Assembly (NCBI GenBank): GCA_020436535.1
Contig: JAGQXQ010000005.1
Location: 973 to 37,028 of the forward strand
Reading direction: 5' to 3'
Length of the DNA: 36,056 nucleotides
DNA from: Phaeodactylibacter sp.
GTDB lineage: Bacteria; Bacteroidota; Bacteroidia; Chitinophagales; Saprospiraceae
The position numbers and the translations under genes were made by a program. Below, piece after piece: positions 3,488 to 35,970 of this stretch (position 1 is the first letter of the stretch; each line of letters begins with the position of its first letter). The notes below the pieces were generated by a model. It was not told the DNA's origin. It did no database searches and saw nothing but the letters and a program-made list of their open reading frames with translations.

Positions 3488-4891
3488 ATGAAGGTATTAC
3501 GCATTTCGTTTATAGCGCTCATGCTGTTGAGCTTCTTCTCTGCCTCACTTATGGCGCAGTGTGAGACGTGGAATAACTCCCCCAAAAAAGAAGAGGCGGA
3601 AAATGCTCACGTTTTATATCGGGGCATTGTAAAAGGAAAGGATGCTGCTGAACTCGAAAGCGTCAGCGCTGAAGAGTTTAAAATGGCTTATACCAACTGG
3701 AAAAAGGCCTATGACATTGCTCCTGCCGCCGACGGACAGCGCCCTTCTCACTATTCCGACGGCCGCAACCTGCTGAAGGTTAAGTACAAGCGCACCACGG
3801 ATGAAGCGGAGAAGAAGGAGATTGCCGCCAAAATACTGGAGCTATACGACCAACAGGCCCAATGTTATGAAAATGAAGCCTTTCTGATGGGCCGTAAAGC
3901 CTTCGATATGTTCTACATGCCGGAATACGGCTATCGGGAAGCTACCTATGAAGCCTTTAAAAAAGCGCTGGAGCTAGGCGGTAATGATGCTGAATACATC
4001 CTGCTGGAGCCGATGGCGCAGCTCCTGGTCTACTTCTATAAATCAAAAAAGATCGACCAGGCGGAAACGCAAAAAGTGTACAGCCAGTTGGAAGAGCTCG
4101 CTGACTACAACATTGAAAACAATGAACGCTTTGGTGCTTACTACAAGGATTCCAAAGCCCGTATGACCTCTCAATTCAAAGAAATCGAAGATGAAGTGTT
4201 CGACTGCGCCTACTTCAAGAAAAAGCTGTTGCCGGATTACGAAGCCAACAAGGACAGCCTGAATATCATCCAGTATGTCTATGTGAAATTGAGACAACAG
4301 GGCTGTGACAGCACCGAGGCAAAAATGGTGGAAATAAGAACCGCTTACGAAACCCTGGCCGCCAAGATCAATATCGAGCGGGAAAAGACACGCCGGGATT
4401 CAAACGCCTGTTATGACGCCAGCCAGCTGCAGCAGGAAGGCGATTACAGCCGCGCCTTGTCTCGTTATGAAGAGTGCCTGACGACCACCACAGAACCCGA
4501 AACGCGCGCTCAAGTCTATTACAGTATCGCCTCTATCAAGTTGTATCGCCAGAATAATGCCGGGGGTGCTATTTCGGCCGCCCGCCAGGCTGCCAGCCTC
4601 AAATCCGGTTGGGGCCGCCCCTACCTGCTCATCGGTGATGCCTACGCTAAAATGGGCCGCGGTTGTGATGACTGGAATTCCCGACTGGCAGTCATAGCTG
4701 CTATTGAGAAATATAGTTACGCCAAATCCATCGATGGAGATGTGGCCGACGACGCCAACAAACGGATCGGCCAGTATTCCGACGCTTTGCCTGCCCGCCA
4801 GGACGGTTTTATGCGCGGCCTGAAGGAAGGCCAGTCTGTACCCGTTGGTTGTGGTATCGGCGAGACGGTGAGGCTGCGGTTTAAGGATTAG
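3488..4891 (+). CDS. Secreted TPR-containing protein
   Basis: A 467-residue protein beginning 3 nt after the preceding outer-membrane protein, so in the same operon. The N-terminus MKVLRISFIALMLL with a cleavage site near SLMAQC is a signal peptide. The body is helical and charged; the clearest TPR-type pair is at about residues 318-390, where a YSRALSRYEECL helix is followed by YYSIASIKLYRQ and a YLLIGDAYAKMG helix. Several Cys are conserved-looking (QCE at the mature N-terminus, QCYE, DCAYF, GCDS, ECL, GCD, GCG), which could form disulfides in the periplasm. TPR proteins at this position are probably scaffolds in envelope assembly together with the barrel encoded just upstream. No enzymatic motif was seen. 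Confidence 0.8.
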   Translation: MKVLRISFIALMLLSFFSASLMAQCETWNNSPKKEEAENAHVLYRGIVKGKDAAELESVSAEEFKMAYTNWKKAYDIAPAADGQRPSHYSDGRNLLKVKYKRTTDEAEKKEIAAKILELYDQQAQCYENEAFLMGRKAFDMFYMPEYGYREATYEAFKKALELGGNDAEYILLEPMAQLLVYFYKSKKIDQAETQKVYSQLEELADYNIENNERFGAYYKDSKARMTSQFKEIEDEVFDCAYFKKKLLPDYEANKDSLNIIQYVYVKLRQQGCDSTEAKMVEIRTAYETLAAKINIEREKTRRDSNACYDASQLQQEGDYSRALSRYEECLTTTTEPETRAQVYYSIASIKLYRQNNAGGAISAARQAASLKSGWGRPYLLIGDAYAKMGRGCDDWNSRLAVIAAIEKYSYAKSIDGDVADDANKRIGQYSDALPARQDGFMRGLKEGQSVPVGCGIGETVRLRFKD

Positions 4892-7639: not shown

Positions 7640-9556
7640 ATGAGCAATTTCATAGTTTCGGCAAGAAAATACCGGCCCGTCCGGTTTGACGATGTAGTGG
7701 GGCAGGAGCATGTATCCCAAACGCTGAAGAACGCCCTGAAGAACGAGCACCTGGCGCACGCCTTCCTCTTCTGCGGTCCGCGTGGGGTAGGGAAGACGAC
7801 CTGTGCCCGCATCCTGGCCAAGGTGCTGAACTGCCAGAACGTTTCGGCCGATTTCGAACCCTGCAACGAATGCTCGTCCTGCCAGGCCTTCAACGCCAAC
7901 TCCTCTTTCAACATCACCGAGCTGGACGCCGCCTCCAACAACAGCGTGGAGCACATCCGCGCCCTGATCGAGCAGGTGCGCTTCCAGCCGCAGCAGGGCA
8001 AATACAAGGTATTTATCATCGACGAGGTACACATGCTCTCCCAGCAGGCCTTCAACGCCTTCCTGAAAACCCTGGAGGAGCCGCCGCCCTATGCCATCTT
8101 CATCCTGGCCACCACCGAGAAGCACAAGATCATCCCCACTATCCTGTCCCGCTGCCAGATCTTCGACTTCCGCCGCATACAGGTGCCGGAAATGGTATCC
8201 CACCTGCAGGCCATCTGCCAGCAGGAAAACATCGAGGCCGATAAGGACGCCTTGCACATCATCGGCCAAAAGGCCGACGGCGCCCTGCGCGATGCCCTGT
8301 CCATCTTCGACCGCATCGTTTCCTTCTCCGGTAACCGCATCAGCTATGAAGATGTGATCACCAACCTCAATGTGCTCGATTACGACTACTACTTCCAGGT
8401 GGTTGACGCTCTGCTGGTGGAGGACAGCTCCAAAATACTGCTGCTCTTCGACACCATCCTCCGCAACGGCTTTGAGCCCGATATATTTATGACCGGCCTG
8501 GCCGAGCACTTACGCAACCTGCTGGTTTGTAAGGACGAGGCCACCCTGCAATTGCTGGAAGTGAGCGAAGGACTGCGGGTGCGCTACCTCGAGCAGGCCC
8601 GCCTGACGCCTTCCAGCTTACTGCTAACCGCCCTCAACCTGGCCAATGATTGCGATATCAACTACAAACTGGCGCGCAACAAACGCCTGCACGTGGAGAT
8701 GGCCCTCATCAAAATGGCCTACATCCCCCGGGCTTTCCAGCTGGCAGAAAACGGCGCCGCAGCCTTCAGCCCGGAAAAAAAAACGGCTGAACTGAGCAAC
8801 GCCCTCCAGCCCGAAAGTCGGAAGTCGGAAGTCGGAAACCCAACAACCCCTGGCCCGAAGCTGGAGCCGGAGCCTTCCAATACAGAAATTTCCGAGCCAG
8901 GCCCGCCTATCGTCAACCGTCAACCTGAACCTGAACTTGAAACTCAGGAAGGCGGGAAGTCGGAAACCCATCCCGAGCCGGAATCTCCGGCGCCCGAACC
9001 GTCGGCCGTCGGCCACCAATCTCAGTCACCAGCCTCTGAGCAACAATCCCCGCCCGGTACTCAGTCTCTGCCTCAGAAGAAAAGCCTGAAAAAGGGAGGC
9101 GCCCAGGACATGCCCCGGCTGATGGCCCTGGAGGCTATGCTGGCGGAAGTAAAGGCCGAAGAGGCCGAACTGCTTACCCAGGAAGTGCAGGAAGTGACCC
9201 AGGAACGGGTGGAAGAGGCCTGGAATTTGTACATCGAATCTCAGGGCCAGGAGTCTGTAAAGGTGATCATGCGCAATTCCACATTGCAACTAAGCGGGCA
9301 GAATGTGGTTGTGACCGTCACTTCCGCTCTGGCCGAAAATACGATCCGCCAGGAAAATAACCTGATGGACTATATGCGGGAAGTGCTCACCGCCCCTGAA
9401 CTGACCATGACCCTCCAGGTCGATAAGAGCAAAGCCGTGGAGCCGCCCAAACGCAAACGTATCCTCAGCAGCAAAGATAAATACCTGGCTATGCGGGAAA
9501 CCAACCCCAATATTACAGAACTGCAAAAGCGGTTTGATTTGAGGCCGGATGAGTAG
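7640..9556 (+). CDS. dnaX: DNA polymerase III subunit gamma/tau
   Basis: The clamp-loader ATPase that loads the sliding clamp during replication. The start chosen is ATG 7640, giving 638 residues: a GGAGG sits 6 nt upstream and the protein then begins MSNFIVSARKYRPVRFDDVV as in the family; an upstream in-frame start at 7607 adds an unlikely Arg/Gln/Ser tail. Seen: Walker A GPRGVGKTT (46-54), zinc Cys 65, 75, 78 and 81, Walker B IIDEVH (126-131), SRC sensor (170-172). Residues of about 385-490 form a Pro/Glu/Ser-rich linker carrying heptanucleotide tandem repeats at the DNA level, followed by a C-terminal tau-like domain (about 495-638). A strong GGAGG ribosome site is unusual in this phylum. 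Confidence 0.96.
   Translation: MSNFIVSARKYRPVRFDDVVGQEHVSQTLKNALKNEHLAHAFLFCGPRGVGKTTCARILAKVLNCQNVSADFEPCNECSSCQAFNANSSFNITELDAASNNSVEHIRALIEQVRFQPQQGKYKVFIIDEVHMLSQQAFNAFLKTLEEPPPYAIFILATTEKHKIIPTILSRCQIFDFRRIQVPEMVSHLQAICQQENIEADKDALHIIGQKADGALRDALSIFDRIVSFSGNRISYEDVITNLNVLDYDYYFQVVDALLVEDSSKILLLFDTILRNGFEPDIFMTGLAEHLRNLLVCKDEATLQLLEVSEGLRVRYLEQARLTPSSLLLTALNLANDCDINYKLARNKRLHVEMALIKMAYIPRAFQLAENGAAAFSPEKKTAELSNALQPESRKSEVGNPTTPGPKLEPEPSNTEISEPGPPIVNRQPEPELETQEGGKSETHPEPESPAPEPSAVGHQSQSPASEQQSPPGTQSLPQKKSLKKGGAQDMPRLMALEAMLAEVKAEEAELLTQEVQEVTQERVEEAWNLYIESQGQESVKVIMRNSTLQLSGQNVVVTVTSALAENTIRQENNLMDYMREVLTAPELTMTLQVDKSKAVEPPKRKRILSSKDKYLAMRETNPNITELQKRFDLRPDE
8817..9014 (+). repeat. Heptanucleotide tandem repeats inside the dnaX linker
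   Basis: Three different 7-nt units are tandemly repeated in the coding strand: GTCGGAA three times at 8817-8837 (a further single copy at 8959-8965), GTCAACC twice at 8912-8925 and GTCGGCC twice at 9001-9014. All begin with GTC. They encode part of the disordered linker between the ATPase and the C-terminal domain; the reading frame stays open through them. Confidence 0.8.
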
Positions 9557-9875
9557 GGGATGCTTGTGTGTTGTATGGCTGGATTGTTGTATTGTTGGCG
9601 CACCAATGCCAAACCTCAGACTGTAGCCAATTACGAACCGCCAAAAGCCAACCGCCGCCCACACATTTGTGATAAAAAATTGATTTTCTTGTTAAGAACA
9701 AGACAGTTCATACTACTTAAATTTGTAGAACGAGAACCAATAATGCAATGGCGTGTTTTTGTAAAAACCGGAAATTTTCAAAACAGCGGATATAAGTCTA
9801 TGAACAGGGTGTTTTTAAGGCTCCCTCAAACCTTGAACCCCAAAACATCCCAACAAAACCCTAAAAGGTAAAGCC
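9557..9875. other. Intergenic region between dnaX and the Crp/Fnr gene
   Basis: 319 nt without a credible gene. The left part (9565-9660) is low-complexity, with repeated TTGTATTGTTG-like words and two AACCGCC words. The right part holds a 17-nt palindrome and a -7 element (separate entry). A 103-codon open frame here has no family features and runs through these elements, so it is not called. Confidence 0.6.
9687..9725 (+). promoter_or_regulatory. Palindrome plus -7 element upstream of the Crp/Fnr gene
   Basis: TCTTGTT-AAG-AACAAGA (9687-9703) is a perfect inverted repeat with 7-bp arms. TAAATTTG at 9718-9725 fits TAnnTTTG. The palindrome covers the region where a -33 element would be, the usual position for an operator. 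Binding by the Crp/Fnr protein itself is only a guess. The leader to the ATG would be about 145 nt. Confidence 0.5.
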
Positions 9876-10568
9876 ATGAGTGATCAATCCCTTTGGTATC
9901 TGGAAAATATCGATGTAACCGGCATCTTCTGCCCCAAGAAGGTCGGCAGGGGCGACATGGACCAACATGTCCATAAAAACTTCAAAAAAGGAGAATACAT
10001 CTACCTGCCCGACGAGCATGCCGACAAGATATACTTCCTGACCGAAGGCCGGGTCAAGATCGGCGCCTACGGCGATTCCGGCAAGGAGATTACCAAGGCG
10101 ATCCTCTCCGCCGGCGAGGTGTTCGGCGAGCTTTCCCTCATTGGGGAAGACAAGCGGCGCGACTTCGCCTACGCTATGGAAAAAACCGTCGCTTGTGTGA
10201 TGTCGGTGCCGGATATGAGATCCATGATGCGCGACCACAACGGCCTCAGCCTGTTCCTGATGAAGATCATGGGCTCGCGTATGCTGGAGATGGAGCAGCG
10301 ACTGGAATCACTCGTTTTTAAGGATAGCCGCACCCGGATCATCGAGTTCCTGCACGAGTTGGGAGAGAAGAAAGGGCAGCGCGTCGGCTACGAGATGCTC
10401 GTCCGAAAATTTATGACCCACCAGGAAATCGCCAACCTGACCGCTACCTCCCGGCAAACCGTCACCACCGTCCTCAACGAACTGCGCAACCGCAACCTGC
10501 TGACCTTCAACCGCAAGCGCCTGCTGATCCGGGATATGGAGAAGTTGGGGAAGGCGGCGAGGGAATAG
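9876..10568 (+). CDS. Crp/Fnr-family transcriptional regulator
   Basis: A 230-residue DNA-binding regulator. The N-terminal cyclic-nucleotide-binding-like beta roll covers about residues 30-130 (KKGEYIYLPDEHADKIYFL, then LSAGEVFGELSLIGED in the place of the phosphate-binding cassette). A dimerisation helix follows, then a winged helix-turn-helix at about 184-222 (THQEIANLTATSRQTVTTVL, recognition helix around SRQTVTTVLNEL). The cassette lacks the Arg-Ser-Ala pair of cAMP-binding Crp (it reads EDKRRDFAYA), so cAMP binding is doubtful. The four-Cys pattern of Fnr is absent. It stands alone between dnaX and a convergent gene. The signal is unknown. Confidence 0.93.
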   Translation: MSDQSLWYLENIDVTGIFCPKKVGRGDMDQHVHKNFKKGEYIYLPDEHADKIYFLTEGRVKIGAYGDSGKEITKAILSAGEVFGELSLIGEDKRRDFAYAMEKTVACVMSVPDMRSMMRDHNGLSLFLMKIMGSRMLEMEQRLESLVFKDSRTRIIEFLHELGEKKGQRVGYEMLVRKFMTHQEIANLTATSRQTVTTVLNELRNRNLLTFNRKRLLIRDMEKLGKAARE

Positions 10569-10651
10569 AAAGAAATATTCGCATTGCTATATGGTTTCAT
10601 CGTTATTGCAAAGCTCCTAATGGGTAGTACGCCCTTTCCCCGTCCCCCTCG

Positions 10652-25336: not shown

Positions 25337-25692
25337 AAAAGGAAAGGGGTAACGATCGAATGGTATCTGAGAAAGGCCCAATGGGCTCGTTTCGGCAGAT
25401 AGCAAAGGCCATCACCTCAATGATTCCAAGCGCACTTTGTCAATTTTAACATACCAATTGAGCCGGTATATAATTTTACACCATCCCATTTCGTTCCTTA
25501 CCTTCGATAGCTTTGCCCATATTATAAAAGGCTCCAAAACCAGATTTAACCCAAGATTATCTGAATGATTGGGGAAGGTGTTGTACAAAAGTTCAAAACT
25601 TTCCTCTTTGTGGTATAATAGTAGCGATGTGATCTCTATTTTTGCCACCTTTTAACATCCCAATTATCGATCGTTTATCTCAATCCGGAAAG
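25337..25692. other. AT-rich intergenic region before the giant adhesin gene
   Basis: 356 nt, clearly lower in GC than both flanks. TATTTTTG at 25637-25644 fits the -7 element and lies 49 nt before the adhesin ATG; the nearest TTTG (25607-25610) is 26 nt upstream, longer than ideal. A TATAAT also occurs at 25614-25619. A 78-codon minus-strand frame (25412-25648, GTG start) has no family features and is not called. Confidence 0.5.
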
Positions 25693-28600
25693 ATGATAAG
25701 ACACTCTATTCTCTTTGCCCTTTTGTTCGTAGCCAGCCTGCAGCTGGGGGCACAAACACCCAGGAACATAACAATTCGCGGTGAATCCGGCGCTTTGCGC
25801 GTGGTGCCCTGCACGGATAATGATGCTGGAACCATCACATTTGATGTGGGCAACTTCGCGGGGCAGAGCAATGATATCAGCCTGGATACCATTTATCTCT
25901 GCTTGGGGGATTCCCTGCCCATCATCCACAATGGAGACTTTACCCTCAATGGAGATCCCAATCCGGCGACACCTGCCGGTATTGGTTATGCTTTTTACGA
26001 TTGCCGTCCTACGGTGGATGGGCCGGATATCACCACGATCCGAACGGATCCGTGCCTGAACCAAACCGACCCGCTCGTCTTCATGGGCGCCAACTTTACC
26101 CAAGACCAGGGTATCTGGGTGGCGGTAGAGGAAATCAACGGTAACCTCCAACTTGCCAACACCGGCTTCCACCAGGAGGCCTTCAATATGGGTAACCCTG
26201 CTCCTGTTCAGTTGTGGTTTGCCCCCATCACTATAGACAACTTCGCCATCCTGCAGTACGAAAACGGCGGCCCCTGTGTAAGCGCCAGCATCAGCGAAGC
26301 CTTCTCCGTCGTCTACCTGGAAGCCGTACAAGTAACAGAGGCCCTCCCCAACTTCGGCCCCGGCATGCAGGGCGCTTTCTCGGTAGAAGGCGGCCTGCCC
26401 GAATTTCAAACCAGCACGTCCTATGCACCCATCACGATCAGCCACCTGGGGGGCGACGTGCTGGCGGGCGCCGTGCAAACCGTCAATCCCGGCCATGGCG
26501 ATACCGTTCAGTTCACGGTGCCGCGCCCGGGAGATTATGAGGTTGTGGTGGAAGATGGTAAGAGCTGCGCCGCAATTGACACCATCGTGATGCCGGTGAT
26601 CTTCAGCGCGGGGGCGGCCAACGGCGCTCCCGGCGATACCGTCTGCGTCGAGATTCGGGTGGACAATCTGGTGGATGTGACCAATGCCCAGTTTACGCTG
26701 AACTGGGATCCTGCCATCCTGGAATTTGTGGAAGTGAATAACCTGAACACGATGCTGCCGGCCCTGGATGACGGCGCCTTCAATATGAACCCTGCCGTTA
26801 CCGATTTGGGGCGGCTGCCCTTTGCCTGGGCCGATTTCCTGGGCACCAGCAATACCCTGCCCGATGGATCGGTATTATTCGAAGTTTGTTTTGAAGTGAT
26901 CGGCGGCCTGGGGCAGAACAGTGACATCACTTTTGGCGATATGCCAACCCCCATACAAGTGGGCAATACCAACAATATACCCAGTATGTATCCCTTTGAA
27001 ACCTCACCGGGCCGGGTAAATGTAACTAACTCCGTATTGCTGACAGAGGCCGTACAAGACAGCGTGAGCTGCAACGGCTTGTCCGACGGCGCCTTTACTG
27101 TCACGGTTTCCGGAGGCATGGGGCCTTATAATTTTACCTGGAACACCTTTCCCGTATCCGGGCCGGAGAATGGCCCCATCGTTATTGCCACATCTGGTGG
27201 CTCCGCTACTGTTGGCGGCCGTTCTGCCGGGGAATACCGGATCATTGTTGCGGATTCCGATATGCCGGCCAATATAGATACCATACTGGTTGAAGTCTTT
27301 CAGGGCGCATCCCTGGGGGTTAACCTTTTGCCCACTGCGCCTACCTGCTTTGCTCAGAGTGATGGATCGGTGACCGCTCAGGTCACGCTGGGCGGTGTGG
27401 TACAACCTAACCCTGGCTCCAATTTCACCTTCACTTGGGCCAACACCCCAAACAATATACAGACTCTGTCTAATGTGCCTTCCGGTTTCTATGGAGTTAC
27501 GATTACCGATGTGGCAGGTTGTCAGGCCTCGGCAAGTACGACCCTTTCTCAGCCTGCACCCTTACAAATTCTGGCCAATAATACCTTCATCACGGATGCA
27601 ACCTGCACCGGCGCCATGGACGGCTCCATTTTGGTAGGGGCCACAGGCGGCACCTCTGCTTCGGGCAACTATACCTATAACTGGAGTGGAGGCCTGGGCA
27701 CGGTAACGGCCAATACTTCCCAGGTCAGCAACCTGGACCCGGGGATGTTTACCGTGACGGTGACCGATGACAACAATTGTACACTCGAAGAAAGCTATCC
27801 GGTAACTGCCGCCAAGATCTTGTCGGCCAACCTGATTAACCTGATGGATATCACCTGTAATGGAGCGGATGACGGCAGTATTGAAGTCAGTGGCACCACG
27901 ACCGGCCAACCTCCCTTTGGGCCTTTTACTTATACGTGGGCAACGGTTCCTCCTTCGGGGCCTACCTTTACCGGTGCGCAGGTTACCGGCCTGGGCCCTG
28001 CCCAATACGCCGTGACCGTTACAGACTCTGACCCTGCAGGATGTGCGGTTTCCGATACCTTCACCATAGTCGAGCCGGCGCCGCTGGCCATTCAGCAGAT
28101 CGAGTTGCTCAATGAAAGCTGTGATAACGGCGGTAACGATGGCAGCGTCACTATAGGGGTGACGGGTGGTACCGCTCCGTACGCTTACAGCTGGTCGGAC
28201 GGCCAGTTGGATTCCATTGCCATCAACCTTTCCGCCGGCATGTTTACGGTCGATGTTACGGACGCCAACAACTGCACCGCCAACCAAACCTTTAACATTA
28301 CTGCTCCGACCCCTCCGCAGGTGACCCAGTTGGACAATGATACGCTGGCCTGCTTTGACGACACCAACGGCTCCCTCTCGGTACTGGCAACACCAGGTGG
28401 GGCCCCTATCCAAAGTTATAACTGGAGCAACAGCGCAACCGGCCAGACGATCACCAACCTGTCGCCAGGTTCCTATTTTGTGACCATTACCGCCAATGAC
28501 GGCTGTTTCATAGTTGATACTGCCCTGGTTGTCGCCCCGGCGCCTTTAGCGCTGGACAGTATCGTCGCCGCTTCGCCCAATTGCCCGGGCGATGATAATG

Positions 28601-30357
28601 GAACACTGGCCGTTTATGCCAGCGGCGGCACCCTGCCGTACACCTATATCTGGAGCAATCAGCCCACCAACGATACGCTGCAATTCAACCTTTATCCGGG
28701 GTTGACCGCCGGTAATTATCCGGTGACGGTGGTAGATGCCAACGGTTGTACGCCCCTGAATGCCCTGGGCACAGTTGTTGACCCTCCCAGTATTGTGGTA
28801 GATTTCAGCAACATCACCGAAGTGAGCTGTTTTGAAGGAGTTTGCGATGGCGGCGCCACCGCTACGGCTATGTACAGCGATGGCTCTACTGATGTCTTCG
28901 GCTTTTCGTGGGAATCCAACGAGACGGATATGGGGGTGATGTCTTCTTCTGCCAGCGCTCTTTGTAAGGACTGGCAGACGTTGGTGGTGACCGATGCGAA
29001 CGGCTGTTTCGGCCTGGATTCTGTTCTGATTCCCAGCCCACCGGAGATCAATATTTCTTCCAGCCTCTCCAATGTGAGCTGTAATGGGTTCAATGATGGT
29101 ATGGTTACTGCTATTCCATCCGGAGGAACGCCCGGTTATTCCTATCTCTGGCAACAAACCGGCGAAATAACGGAAACCATCAGCGGCCTGGCGGCTGGGA
29201 CTTACAATGTAGTGGTGACGGATGCAAATGGTTGTCAGGAGCCGCTGGAAGTAGATATCACCGAACCGGATCCACTTATTATCTCGGTCAATACTGACGA
29301 GACCCAGGATGTGTCCTGTTTCGGCGAAGAAGATGGCGTATTGGTCGTTACCTACAACTCCAACGATATGGTCAATGAGGTAGGGGCGAACCCATACAGC
29401 TGGTCTTCTAATGTCCCACTGGGTTCTACTTCTCCGCTGGGGGTAGCCACTAACCTGCCTGCCGGCACCTATGGCGTGACCATAACGGATGTTGAGGGTT
29501 GCCAGGATTCACTGTCTTATACCCTGATGGAACCGACGGCGATCATGGCTACCATTCCGGACCCGGAAGACCCACCCTGCTTCAATTCAACCACTAAGGT
29601 AAATATCGACACCGTGTACGGAGGCGCCGGCGCTTCTCTGGCCGATTATCAGTATATGGTGGATGGTAACGGCATATTGCTGCCCATCGATGTACCGGCA
29701 GACATCTTTGGTGATGGCGCCCACGATGTAGAGATCTTTGATCTCAATGGTTGCTCGGCCGCCTTCCAGGTAGAGATCGACCAGCCGGAAGAAATACTGG
29801 TCACTTTCCCCGAAGACCCCTTTGTGGTGGAACTCGGGGACACCGCCCGGCAGTTACAGCCTCTCATTACGCCCTTATCTACCCAGATCGACTCCTTCAT
29901 CTGGTCGCCCGCAGATTACCTGTCCGACCCCACGGTGCGCAACCCATTCGTCCGCCCGCTGGAATCCCTGGAGTACGAACTGACCGTGGTGGATATTAAC
30001 GGCTGTGAGGGCTTTGGCAGCGTATTCGTGGAACTGGACGCCAACCGCAATATTTACATTCCCAACGTCTTTTCTCCCAATGGAGATGGGGTGAACGATG
30101 AATTCCGCGTCTACCCCTGCATTGGGGTAACCAATATCGCTTCGGTGAATATCTTCAACCGTTGGGGAGACCAGGTCTACCAGAATACCGGTCAGGACGT
30201 GAGCAATGGCCTCTACTGTATCGGTGGCCTGCCTCTGTGGGACGGCCGGTTCAAGGGTAGCGAAATGAAACCCGATGTTTATGTCTATATCGTCGAGGTG
30301 GAGTTCCTGGATAACATCAAACTGGTTTACCGGGGCGATGTCACCATCCTGCGATAG
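25693..30357 (+). CDS. Giant T9SS-secreted adhesin with cohesin-like domain, SprB-type repeats and CHU_C tail
   Basis: 1554 residues from ATG 25693 (GGAAAG just upstream); a TTG at 25642 is rejected since it sits on the promoter and precedes the signal peptide. MIRHSILFALLFVASLQLGAQ is the signal. A cohesin-like domain spans about 302-441 (GDTVCVEIRVDNLVDVTNAQ, FTLNWDPAILEF, LPDGSVLFEVCFEVIGG). From about 451 there are roughly 11 SprB-like repeats with the SCNGxxDGxhxVxxxGGxxPYxYxW plan (VSCNGLSDGAF, ITCNGADDGSI, VSCNGFNDGMV, VSCFGEEDGVL). The CHU_C domain is at about 1453-1554 (IYIPNVFSPNGDGVNDEF, FNRWGDQVY, YRGDVTILR). It is exported by the type IX system to the surface. SprB is a gliding adhesin in Flavobacterium; adhesion is the likely role here. 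A strong terminator follows. Confidence 0.93.
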   Translation: MIRHSILFALLFVASLQLGAQTPRNITIRGESGALRVVPCTDNDAGTITFDVGNFAGQSNDISLDTIYLCLGDSLPIIHNGDFTLNGDPNPATPAGIGYAFYDCRPTVDGPDITTIRTDPCLNQTDPLVFMGANFTQDQGIWVAVEEINGNLQLANTGFHQEAFNMGNPAPVQLWFAPITIDNFAILQYENGGPCVSASISEAFSVVYLEAVQVTEALPNFGPGMQGAFSVEGGLPEFQTSTSYAPITISHLGGDVLAGAVQTVNPGHGDTVQFTVPRPGDYEVVVEDGKSCAAIDTIVMPVIFSAGAANGAPGDTVCVEIRVDNLVDVTNAQFTLNWDPAILEFVEVNNLNTMLPALDDGAFNMNPAVTDLGRLPFAWADFLGTSNTLPDGSVLFEVCFEVIGGLGQNSDITFGDMPTPIQVGNTNNIPSMYPFETSPGRVNVTNSVLLTEAVQDSVSCNGLSDGAFTVTVSGGMGPYNFTWNTFPVSGPENGPIVIATSGGSATVGGRSAGEYRIIVADSDMPANIDTILVEVFQGASLGVNLLPTAPTCFAQSDGSVTAQVTLGGVVQPNPGSNFTFTWANTPNNIQTLSNVPSGFYGVTITDVAGCQASASTTLSQPAPLQILANNTFITDATCTGAMDGSILVGATGGTSASGNYTYNWSGGLGTVTANTSQVSNLDPGMFTVTVTDDNNCTLEESYPVTAAKILSANLINLMDITCNGADDGSIEVSGTTTGQPPFGPFTYTWATVPPSGPTFTGAQVTGLGPAQYAVTVTDSDPAGCAVSDTFTIVEPAPLAIQQIELLNESCDNGGNDGSVTIGVTGGTAPYAYSWSDGQLDSIAINLSAGMFTVDVTDANNCTANQTFNITAPTPPQVTQLDNDTLACFDDTNGSLSVLATPGGAPIQSYNWSNSATGQTITNLSPGSYFVTITANDGCFIVDTALVVAPAPLALDSIVAASPNCPGDDNGTLAVYASGGTLPYTYIWSNQPTNDTLQFNLYPGLTAGNYPVTVVDANGCTPLNALGTVVDPPSIVVDFSNITEVSCFEGVCDGGATATAMYSDGSTDVFGFSWESNETDMGVMSSSASALCKDWQTLVVTDANGCFGLDSVLIPSPPEINISSSLSNVSCNGFNDGMVTAIPSGGTPGYSYLWQQTGEITETISGLAAGTYNVVVTDANGCQEPLEVDITEPDPLIISVNTDETQDVSCFGEEDGVLVVTYNSNDMVNEVGANPYSWSSNVPLGSTSPLGVATNLPAGTYGVTITDVEGCQDSLSYTLMEPTAIMATIPDPEDPPCFNSTTKVNIDTVYGGAGASLADYQYMVDGNGILLPIDVPADIFGDGAHDVEIFDLNGCSAAFQVEIDQPEEILVTFPEDPFVVELGDTARQLQPLITPLSTQIDSFIWSPADYLSDPTVRNPFVRPLESLEYELTVVDINGCEGFGSVFVELDANRNIYIPNVFSPNGDGVNDEFRVYPCIGVTNIASVNIFNRWGDQVYQNTGQDVSNGLYCIGGLPLWDGRFKGSEMKPDVYVYIVEVEFLDNIKLVYRGDVTILR

Positions 30358-30760: not shown

Positions 30761-30845
30761 AAGGTTTTTATCTGTGCTCTGGCGCAGGCAAACCCAACAT
30801 TTATTCAACTAACTAACATTTATAATCCAAAACATTTTTTAGAAC

Positions 30846-32861
30846 ATGAAGAAAATTATTTTACTATTTACTGCCTTGTTCTTCGTCGTTGGCGTCACCA
30901 TGGCCCAAACGGAGAACAAGTCGGGCGTAACGGTCTCCAACGACAGCGACGGCAACAAAGTTGTGGTTAAGCAAGACCAGACGGACGATGAAAAGAACGT
31001 CTCGGATGTTACGATTACCGACGATTCTGATGACAACACCGTTAATGTCGGACAGGAAGGAGAAAATCTGAAGAGCGGTGTCGACATCTCAACCAACTCC
31101 TCGGACAACGATGTTGTCGTTGAGCAGAGCGATGAAGACAACCGTTCGAAGGTTGATATCTCCAATAGTTCCAATAGCAACGACGTGCTCGTTGATCAGG
31201 ATGGGGAAGGCCAGGGGTCAAAAGTCAACATCAACAACGGATCTACCTTTAATACGGTCGATGTGGACCAGGATGGCGAAGGCCAGTCTTCCGAGGTTGA
31301 TATTTACAATGGTTCCAGCTTCAACGAAGTTTATATTGACCAGGACGGTTATGACAACGATTCCAAGGTCGATGTATACAATGGTTCCAGTTTCAATGAG
31401 GTCTATGTGGACCAGTACGGAGATGACAACGATTCCGATGTTTCCATCAGCGATGTTTCCTCGGACAACGATGTTGAAGTCGATCAGGATGGAGACGGTA
31501 ATGATTCAGATGTAGCTATTAATAGTGGTTCCAGCGACAACGACGTTAAAGTTGGTCAGGATGGAGACGACAACAACTCGGATGTTACCATCAACAGTGG
31601 CTCCGGCGACAACAACGTTGATGTCAATCAGGACGGAGGCAACAATACCTCCGATGTAGCCATTTACAATGGTTCTGACGACAACGACGTGGAAGCAGAC
31701 CAGGACGGAGGCGACAACACTTCCAATGTTGCGATCTACAACAGCTCTGATGACAACGACGTTAATGTGGACCAGGATGGAGACGACAACGCATCAGGTG
31801 TAGCGATCAATAGTAGTTCTAACGACAACGATGTTGAGGTAGACCAGGACGGAGACGACAACACTTCCGATGTTGCAATCAGTGATGGTTCTGATGACAA
31901 CGACGTTGAAGTATATCAAGACGGAGACGACAACGAATCCGATGTTTCGGTTTACAATGGTTCCAGCGACAACGACGTTGATGTTGACCAGAATGGCGAT
32001 GACAACGAATCTGATGTCGCGGTTTACAATTCTTCTAATAACAACGATGTGGATGTGGACCAGTACGGAGATGACAACACTTCCGATATTGCGGTTAGCA
32101 ATGGTTCCAGCAGCAACGATGTGGATGTGGACCAGTACGGAGATGACAACACCTCCGATGTTGCGATTAGCAATGGTTCCAGCAGCAACGAGGTGGATGT
32201 CGACCAAAACGGAGACGATAACACTTCCGATGTTGCGATTAGCAACGGTTCCAGCAGCAACGAGGTGGATGTTGACCAGAACGGAGACGACAACACTTCC
32301 GATGTTGCGATCTACAATAGTTCCGCTAGCAATGAAGTTGATGTTCTCCAGGAAGGTGAAGACAATGAATCCTATGTTAGTGTCTACGGTGGTTCTTCTT
32401 TCAACGAAGTATTCATTGAGCAGTACGGAGAAGATCACGATTCGGATGTTGATATCTACAATGGCTCCAGCTACAATGAGGTATTTGTGGATCAGAGAGG
32501 AGACAACCAGGATTCTGATGTCAGCATCGGGAACAGTTCTTCAGATAACTTTGTTTCCATCTTCCAGGAAGATAAGGACAACTACTCTGACGTAGCCATC
32601 ACGAACGGTTCTGACAACAACACGGTTAACGTTTTCCAGGATGGGCAGGACCAGGAATCTGAAGTTTACATCAGCGATGGTTCCGATGATAACCAGGTTA
32701 CCATCGACCAGGATGGCAAGGGCCACTACTCAAACGTAGACATTTTTAACAATAGCTACAATAACACGATTTCTGTTCAGCAGGATGGCAGCGACAGCGC
32801 CAGCTACATCACGGTGGACAATATGTCGGATAACAACACGATCAGCATAATTCAGAAGTAA
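30846..32861 (+). CDS. Highly acidic curlin-like repeat protein
   Basis: 671 residues: a signal peptide (MKKIILLFTALFFVVGVTMA, cleavage before QTENK), then about 27 tandem units of exactly 24 residues to the C-terminus, ending TISIIQK. A typical unit reads NDVEVDQDGDDNTSDVAI then about six residues such as SNGSSS. Each has two short alternating strands (VxVxQ and SDVxIx) and the curlin signature QxGxxN, as in CsgA/CsgB repeats (QYGGGN). It differs from CsgA in size (CsgA is about 150 residues with five units) and in extreme Asp content. The turn DxDQDGDDN resembles calcium-binding DxDxDG loops. A beta-solenoid extracellular fibre or matrix protein is inferred. No T9SS tail and no csgE/F/G is seen. 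A terminator follows. Confidence 0.85.
   Translation: MKKIILLFTALFFVVGVTMAQTENKSGVTVSNDSDGNKVVVKQDQTDDEKNVSDVTITDDSDDNTVNVGQEGENLKSGVDISTNSSDNDVVVEQSDEDNRSKVDISNSSNSNDVLVDQDGEGQGSKVNINNGSTFNTVDVDQDGEGQSSEVDIYNGSSFNEVYIDQDGYDNDSKVDVYNGSSFNEVYVDQYGDDNDSDVSISDVSSDNDVEVDQDGDGNDSDVAINSGSSDNDVKVGQDGDDNNSDVTINSGSGDNNVDVNQDGGNNTSDVAIYNGSDDNDVEADQDGGDNTSNVAIYNSSDDNDVNVDQDGDDNASGVAINSSSNDNDVEVDQDGDDNTSDVAISDGSDDNDVEVYQDGDDNESDVSVYNGSSDNDVDVDQNGDDNESDVAVYNSSNNNDVDVDQYGDDNTSDIAVSNGSSSNDVDVDQYGDDNTSDVAISNGSSSNEVDVDQNGDDNTSDVAISNGSSSNEVDVDQNGDDNTSDVAIYNSSASNEVDVLQEGEDNESYVSVYGGSSFNEVFIEQYGEDHDSDVDIYNGSSYNEVFVDQRGDNQDSDVSIGNSSSDNFVSIFQEDKDNYSDVAITNGSDNNTVNVFQDGQDQESEVYISDGSDDNQVTIDQDGKGHYSNVDIFNNSYNNTISVQQDGSDSASYITVDNMSDNNTISIIQK
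32046..32333 (+). repeat. Four near-identical 72-bp tandem units in the curlin-like gene
   Basis: Units beginning at 32046, 32118, 32190 and 32262 have an exact 72-bp period and are nearly identical, including synonymous positions (shared GGTTCCAGCAGCAAC and ACTTCCGATGTTGCG). Other units of the gene keep the period but differ more in DNA. Confidence 0.85.
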
Positions 32862-32886: not shown

Positions 32887-32929
32887 GAAAAAGCCGCCTG
32901 CCGGGAGAAATCCCGGGGGCGGCTTTTTC
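32887..32929. terminator. Rho-independent terminator after the curlin-like gene
   Basis: GAAAAAGCCGCC (32887-32898) pairs with GGCGGCTTTTTC (32918-32929); CCGGGA/TCCCGG extends the stem around a GAAA-type loop. It begins 26 nt after the stop and shares the AAAAAGCCGCC core with the terminator at 30371-30414. Confidence 0.9.
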
Positions 32930-32963
32930 TTTGGGGTTTTCAGCAGGGAAGATTTACCAGGGC

Positions 32964-35898: not shown

Positions 35899-35905
35899 TT
35901 TTGTT

Positions 35906-35970
35906 GTTCGCTGTTCGCTGTTCGCTGTTCGCTGTTCGCTGTTCGCAGGTTCGCAGTTCGCAGGTTCGCC
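35906..35970. repeat. GTTCGCT heptanucleotide tandem repeat
   Basis: Five perfect GTTCGCT copies (35906-35940) are followed by variants GTTCGCA and GGTTCGCA to 35970, then a GAATTCCGAACTCCGAC stretch on the other strand sense. It begins 8 nt after the PBP stop. The remainder to 36056 shows no gene; the window ends there. Confidence 0.88.

Follow-up and report, generated by a model that had tools for sequence, protein, structure and literature searches.

We find that a gene in a 36,056-nucleotide stretch of Phaeodactylibacter sp. DNA (the window) encodes a protein that, judged by its sequence, is a true member of the curlin (CsgA) family, unusually long and strongly negative. It is very probably a long CsgA-type subunit that is exported and becomes part of an amyloid fibre of the curli type in the biofilm matrix. 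Direct support comes from family membership, the repeat architecture, the presence of secretion genes, close paralogues linked to an operon and orthology by synteny. A preliminary description had proposed a curli-like solenoid or fibre subunit; the case is stronger than was stated there, as the protein belongs to the curlin family proper and a secretion system is encoded in the same genome. The Pfam model Curlin_rpt (PF07012) matches in 15 stretches with E=5.9e-43 and 144.9 bits against a cut-off of 20.7. This was half of a proposed profile search; for the other half, no TSP3 profile was listed at E up to 10. The sole phmmer match in the PDB is the curlin 8c50 (E=1.8e-26), which we take to be R15.5, a CsgA homologue of Pontibacter korlensis (A0A0E3UX01), an identity that fits the match. 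Similarly, a profile of 15 paralogues from the genus matches E. coli CsgA (8enq/8enr) with E=5.4e-6. The NCBIfam equivalog for E. coli-type CsgA (NF007470) scored 101.2 bits, below its cut-off of 160, as expected of a non-enteric curlin. A Pfam match to Ribosomal_S19 (E=6.8e-9) was set aside as spurious: no stretch passes alone, and it covers some 17 residues in a chain of low complexity.

The reading frame is intact and encodes a putative signal peptide and, after it, 27 tandem units (Table 1). The predicted signal peptide, MKKIILLFTALFFVVGVTMA^Q, shows by eye typical n, h and c regions and a TMA^Q cleavage site, and is conserved in the paralogues. The gene stands alone, outside the csg operon; on one side lies the gene for a T9SS-type protein with SprB repeats, on the other a PBP1A gene. 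The first of these, directly upstream (window 25642-30357, +), encodes a 1571-aa surface protein that combines SprB repeats with a cohesin-like domain and the CHU_C type B sorting domain of type IX secretion; a short tandem TGTTCGC array (window 35905-35969) follows the PBP1A gene. The leader copy in the window differs from the common form by a missing base, and a genome motif scan did not pick it up. As the motif has a single exact match in the genome, we do not claim it as a regulatory element.

Table 1. Features of the curlin gene and its surroundings, in window coordinates.
Feature	Position	Strand	Basis
Acidic CsgA-type curlin gene (671 aa)	30846..32861	+	ORF, Pfam, PDB match
Predicted Sec-type signal peptide, ~20 aa, ...TMA^Q	30846..30905	+	Read by eye; N-terminus common to paralogues
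Curlin repeats 1-2, arc between them 3 residues longer (QTDDEKN)	30906..31055	+	Conserved in paralogues
25 repeats, each exactly 24 residues	31056..32855	+	Repeat spacing, alignment
Terminal N..I.I.Q-K strand	32835..32858	+	Chain closes on whole repeat, as do paralogues ending Q-K
5' leader, ACATTT(Y)ATAATC-like	30790..30845	+	Similar to most paralogues' leaders, including congener operon copy; similarity only
Inverted repeat aaaaagccgcctgccggg..cccgggggcggcttttt then T-run, probable intrinsic terminator	32887..32931	+	By eye; absent from consensus scan list

The preliminary description had counted about 27 units of exactly 24 residues. There are indeed 27, and the step from one anchor glutamine to the next is 24 residues in all but one of the 26 intervals, which agrees with the 23 ± 5 aa in tandem by which curlins are recognized (PMC10192328); the first interval is 27, a longer arc that is also present in the paralogues. 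Self-identity at a lag of 24 is 0.598, whereas 1000 shuffles reach at most 0.159. The kernel of the 24-residue repeats reads S-x-V-x-I-x-[N/D/S]-x-S-x-x-N-x-V-x-V-x-Q-x-G-x-x-[NQH]-x. In the curlin frame of PMC10192328, the columns that point inward are S1, V3, I5, N7, S9, N12, V14, V16, Q18 and G20. S1, S9, N12 and Q18 are invariant over all 27 repeats, positions 3, 5, 14 and 16 are valine or isoleucine (with one alanine), and G20 is found in 23 of the 26 repeats that have that position. The QxGxxN signature, said earlier to mark each unit, is complete in only 15 repeats (shuffle maximum 4), and it is its glutamine, Gln18, that is universal.

Curlins require at least one motif with the kernel N-x-hydrophobic-x-hydrophobic-x-Q followed by x-G-x-x, and the window protein has such a motif, with N12 and Q18 in every repeat. 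The canonical Gln7 and Gly9 of the other motif are missing: position 7 is N, D, S, T or G and never Q, while position 9 is always serine. In a published degenerate class of curlins, the double-Gln kernel is not obligatory (PMC10192328). This asymmetric kernel, with Ser9 and no Gln7, was missed by the preliminary description and is the feature that does differ.

The acidity that had been pointed out is borne out, as the mature chain contains 165 D+E and 14 K+R, for a net charge of -151 and a pI of 4.05. The acidic residues lie at outward strand positions 2, 13, 15 and 17 and at positions 19, 21 and 22 of arc 2, and stacked Asp/Glu columns run for up to 12 repeats. Comparing repeat with repeat, the median dN/dS is 0.32, which fits purifying selection on the protein. 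The central repeats (about 31488-32351) show the greatest DNA similarity to one another, reaching 0.92, and repeats 1, 2, 24, 26 and 27 best match their counterparts in the orthologue of a congener (G001). Thus, length probably changes by central tandem duplication, and the central repeats are likely a recent expansion of this kind.

Structure prediction of several units had been proposed as a check. An AF2 model of five repeats, for which the alignment consisted only of other repeats of the same protein, has two strands per repeat (pLDDT 71, pTM 0.62), and the whole mature chain, predicted alone, shows 54 strands in 27 repeats (pLDDT 66). These models are of medium confidence and are consistent with, but not proof of, a curlin solenoid. 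The best VIA match of the five-repeat model is the CsgA fibril 8enq (Z 15.6, rmsd 8.4, 105 residues), with the next row at 8.9. Foldseek gave no match at E<=0.001 for either model, and so the claim about the fold rests on the sequence together with the VIA row. 8c50 is absent from the rows of both programs, which does not count against a curlin fold.

Does the organism have the means to secrete a curlin? Another contig of the same genome carries a curli operon (PF03783, 2.2e-62; PF10614, 5.4e-36; PF10627, 1.2e-10), so that csgG, csgE and csgF, the mark of a type VIII system, are all present. The operon holds CsgE, CsgF, CsgG, a CsgB-like protein, an unnamed 137-aa protein and, upstream, an acidic curlin with 24-residue repeats (L010, at least 279 aa, its 5' end cut by the contig). 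The window gene is not inside the operon; acidic paralogues adjoin the operon genes. A subunit gene in the csg operon is usual, not obligatory, and extra copies elsewhere have been published. Four further acidic paralogues lie on two more contigs, and the genome has six acidic curlins in all, with six and three in two congeners. The congener G002 has a complete curli operon that starts with an acidic curlin. In G001, a gene for a 573-aa protein of 23 units sits beside a PBP1A that is 87% identical to the one in the window, and by this shared neighbour we regard it as the orthologue.

The curli loci have other features of note. The unnamed protein of about 137 aa lies between the csgB-like gene and csgE (L010:4649-5062, 3544-4335 (-); L040:7444-9112 (+)), and is similar by eye to the N-terminal half of the long CsgE (NNSVSN..GG pattern). 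It is possibly a CsgC/CsgH-like chaperone, and the long CsgE possibly its fusion to CsgE. CsgG (L010:1587-2975 (-), 462 aa) has a C-terminal extension that is weakly outer-membrane beta-barrel-like (PF13505, E=0.096); the CsgG of Carboxylicivirga is comparably long. Finally, two related proteins of about 470 aa and unassigned family (RDIRELRKFVRSPYFNQRED...; L011:1274-2677 and 9204-10625 (+)) are each encoded 5' of acidic curlin genes, a pairing that suggests block duplication.

With the window protein as query, matches at E<=1e-10 among 41 genomes are confined to the genus, and a 192-aa piece searched at 1e-12 against 296 genomes of the phylum found no match outside its own genome. The 15-row profile, searched against 395 genomes of the class, found one additional strong match, in a genome of another genus of the same family (G234); this curlin lies in a curli operon, has the same kernel and contains 19% D/E. 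In other genera of the family, curlins carry canonical double-Gln repeats and their acid fractions are 0.05-0.175, compared to 0.20-0.29 in this genus. In 14 further proteins, S9 is present at 0.90 of 137 repeats, and glutamine is not among the common residues at position 7. A scan of contigs for a named relative returned only the ordinary curli locus of Carboxylicivirga marina. The G234 curlin (L051:1501-2415 (-)) scores only 7.4 bits with PF07012, below the cut-off of 20.7, showing that the Pfam model can miss the Ser9/no-Gln7 variant; curli operons may thus be under-counted in the family.

Among the closest counterparts are the acidic curlins linked to operons in the genus and in G234 (L010, L040 and L051), which share the acidity and the kernel S-x-V-x-I-x3-S-x2-N-x-V-x-V-x-Q and lie beside csgB-like and csgE genes. 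They are shorter than the window protein (at least 279, 335 and 305 aa, respectively), and the G234 curlin differs in its irregular arcs. R15.5 likewise is a curlin solenoid of many repeats; D/E make up about 20% of it, K/R are essentially absent, and it has the same N-D-x-D-x-D-Q-D-G surface strand (PMC10192328). However, R15.5 is centrosymmetric, Gln and Asn occurring in each of its motifs, and it closes on a half repeat and uses a 2-fold screw. The window protein instead consists of 27 whole repeats of 24 aa, has Gln in one motif only, and carries Ser9 in place of Gly9. E. coli CsgA (8enq/8enr), the top structural row, shares the serine at position 1, the QxGxxN arc, N12 and Q18, but has 5 repeats of 22-23 aa with Gln in both motifs; its N22 targeting segment was not recognized in the window protein.

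These comparisons bear on the suggestion that this might be an undescribed kind of protein, and on the statement that CsgA is not this acidic. Neither its length nor its acidity is new: published curlins have 4-62 repeats averaging 23 ± 5 aa, and R15.5 has 20% D/E and a pI of 2.98 (PMC10192328). Curlins with up to 22 repeats had been reported in 2012 (PMC3521004). Our search for literature on acidic or calcium-linked curlins yielded nothing beyond the Sleutel paper. What is unusual is the asymmetric kernel, Ser9 for Gly9 together with the lack of Gln7, across the genus and in one operon-linked curlin of another genus. We found no description of this distinct kernel, although it may fall within the degenerate class of the literature, which is a broad one.

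The Asp-rich turns had been read as calcium-loop-like, raising the alternative of a matrix protein whose turns bind metal and which folds only on extracellular Ca2+, like RTX, dockerin or TSP3 proteins. The net charge of -151 and the long Asp/Glu columns would suit such a protein. However, DxDxDG occurs only twice (shuffled mean 0.53, maximum 4), which is not above composition, compared to six in the aligned segment of 8c50; Pfam scans at E up to 10 list no EF-hand, dockerin, TSP3 or RTX family; and the curlin frame puts the acidic residues at strand positions that face outward. Moreover, R15.5, the nearest solved relative, which carries the same DxDxDQDG surface, forms fibrils in 10 mM EDTA and at pH 9, and Ca2+ only raised its aggregation or encrustation (PMC10192328). 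As R15.5 fibrillises in EDTA, calcium-dependent folding of the window protein is unlikely. The motif counts, the profiles and the EDTA result led us to reject the calcium-loop reading, and a calcium-dependent matrix protein strikes us as very improbable. By analogy with R15.5, Ca2+ would be expected to act on the bundling of fibres, as a cross-linker, and not on folding.

Somewhat less remote is the idea of a specialised mineral- or cation-templating curli: by binding Ca2+, the persistent Asp/Glu lattice would cross-link fibres into sheets or seed calcium phosphate or carbonate, and the genus would have expanded its paralogues to that end. The number of acidic curlins in this genome and in the two congeners would fit, as would the non-alternating acidic face predicted from the whole-repeat ending, and R15.5 fibres became encrusted and mineral-like with 30 mM Ca2+ and trace phosphate in vitro (PMC10192328). 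Yet that encrustation was seen at high Ca2+, and a negative surface alone would give solubility; we consider templating possible but unlikely. Another view would make the gene an orphan csgA copy that is dead or can be dispensed with, as its place on a different contig from csgEFG might suggest. But the frame of 671 codons is intact, the dN/dS of ~0.32 between repeats is purifying, the core columns are invariant and another species has a syntenic orthologue, leaving this view hardly any credence.

We therefore return to the curlin subunit, against which stand the location of the gene outside the csg operon and the absence of the Gln7 ladder of the canonical double-Gln zipper. In curli biogenesis, subunits are exported by Sec, pass unfolded through CsgG with CsgE and CsgF, and fold and polymerise at the surface. 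We infer the same secretion, folding and polymerisation here: Sec would export the protein, which would cross the outer membrane unfolded via the CsgG, CsgE and CsgF encoded in its own genome, fold outside the cell into a 27-rung two-sheet beta-solenoid of ~13 nm (27 x 4.8 angstrom), and stack end to end with itself or the five acidic paralogues to give the fibre. As the chain leaves no repeat incomplete, subunits should be able to stack head to tail without a screw axis, and the Asp/Glu-rich face (positions 13, 15 and 17, plus 19, 21 and 22 of the arc) should then stay on one side of the fibre. This acidic face would most likely keep fibres hydrated and dispersed, and divalent cations may bridge them.

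A bolder model, which we offer as doubtful, is that this curlin lineage has exchanged one Gln ladder for a serine/asparagine arc (S1-N7-S9) and one face for a continuous carboxylate lattice. Its fibres would be two-faced, divalent cations would set their bundling or mineral coating, and up to six subunits of different lengths would be co-expressed. 

The length-graded acidic subunits make a useful set for materials work. For the curli core itself, which appears to tolerate having one of its glutamine ladders missing throughout 27 successive repeats, the protein would be a natural experiment on which ladder the amyloid requires.
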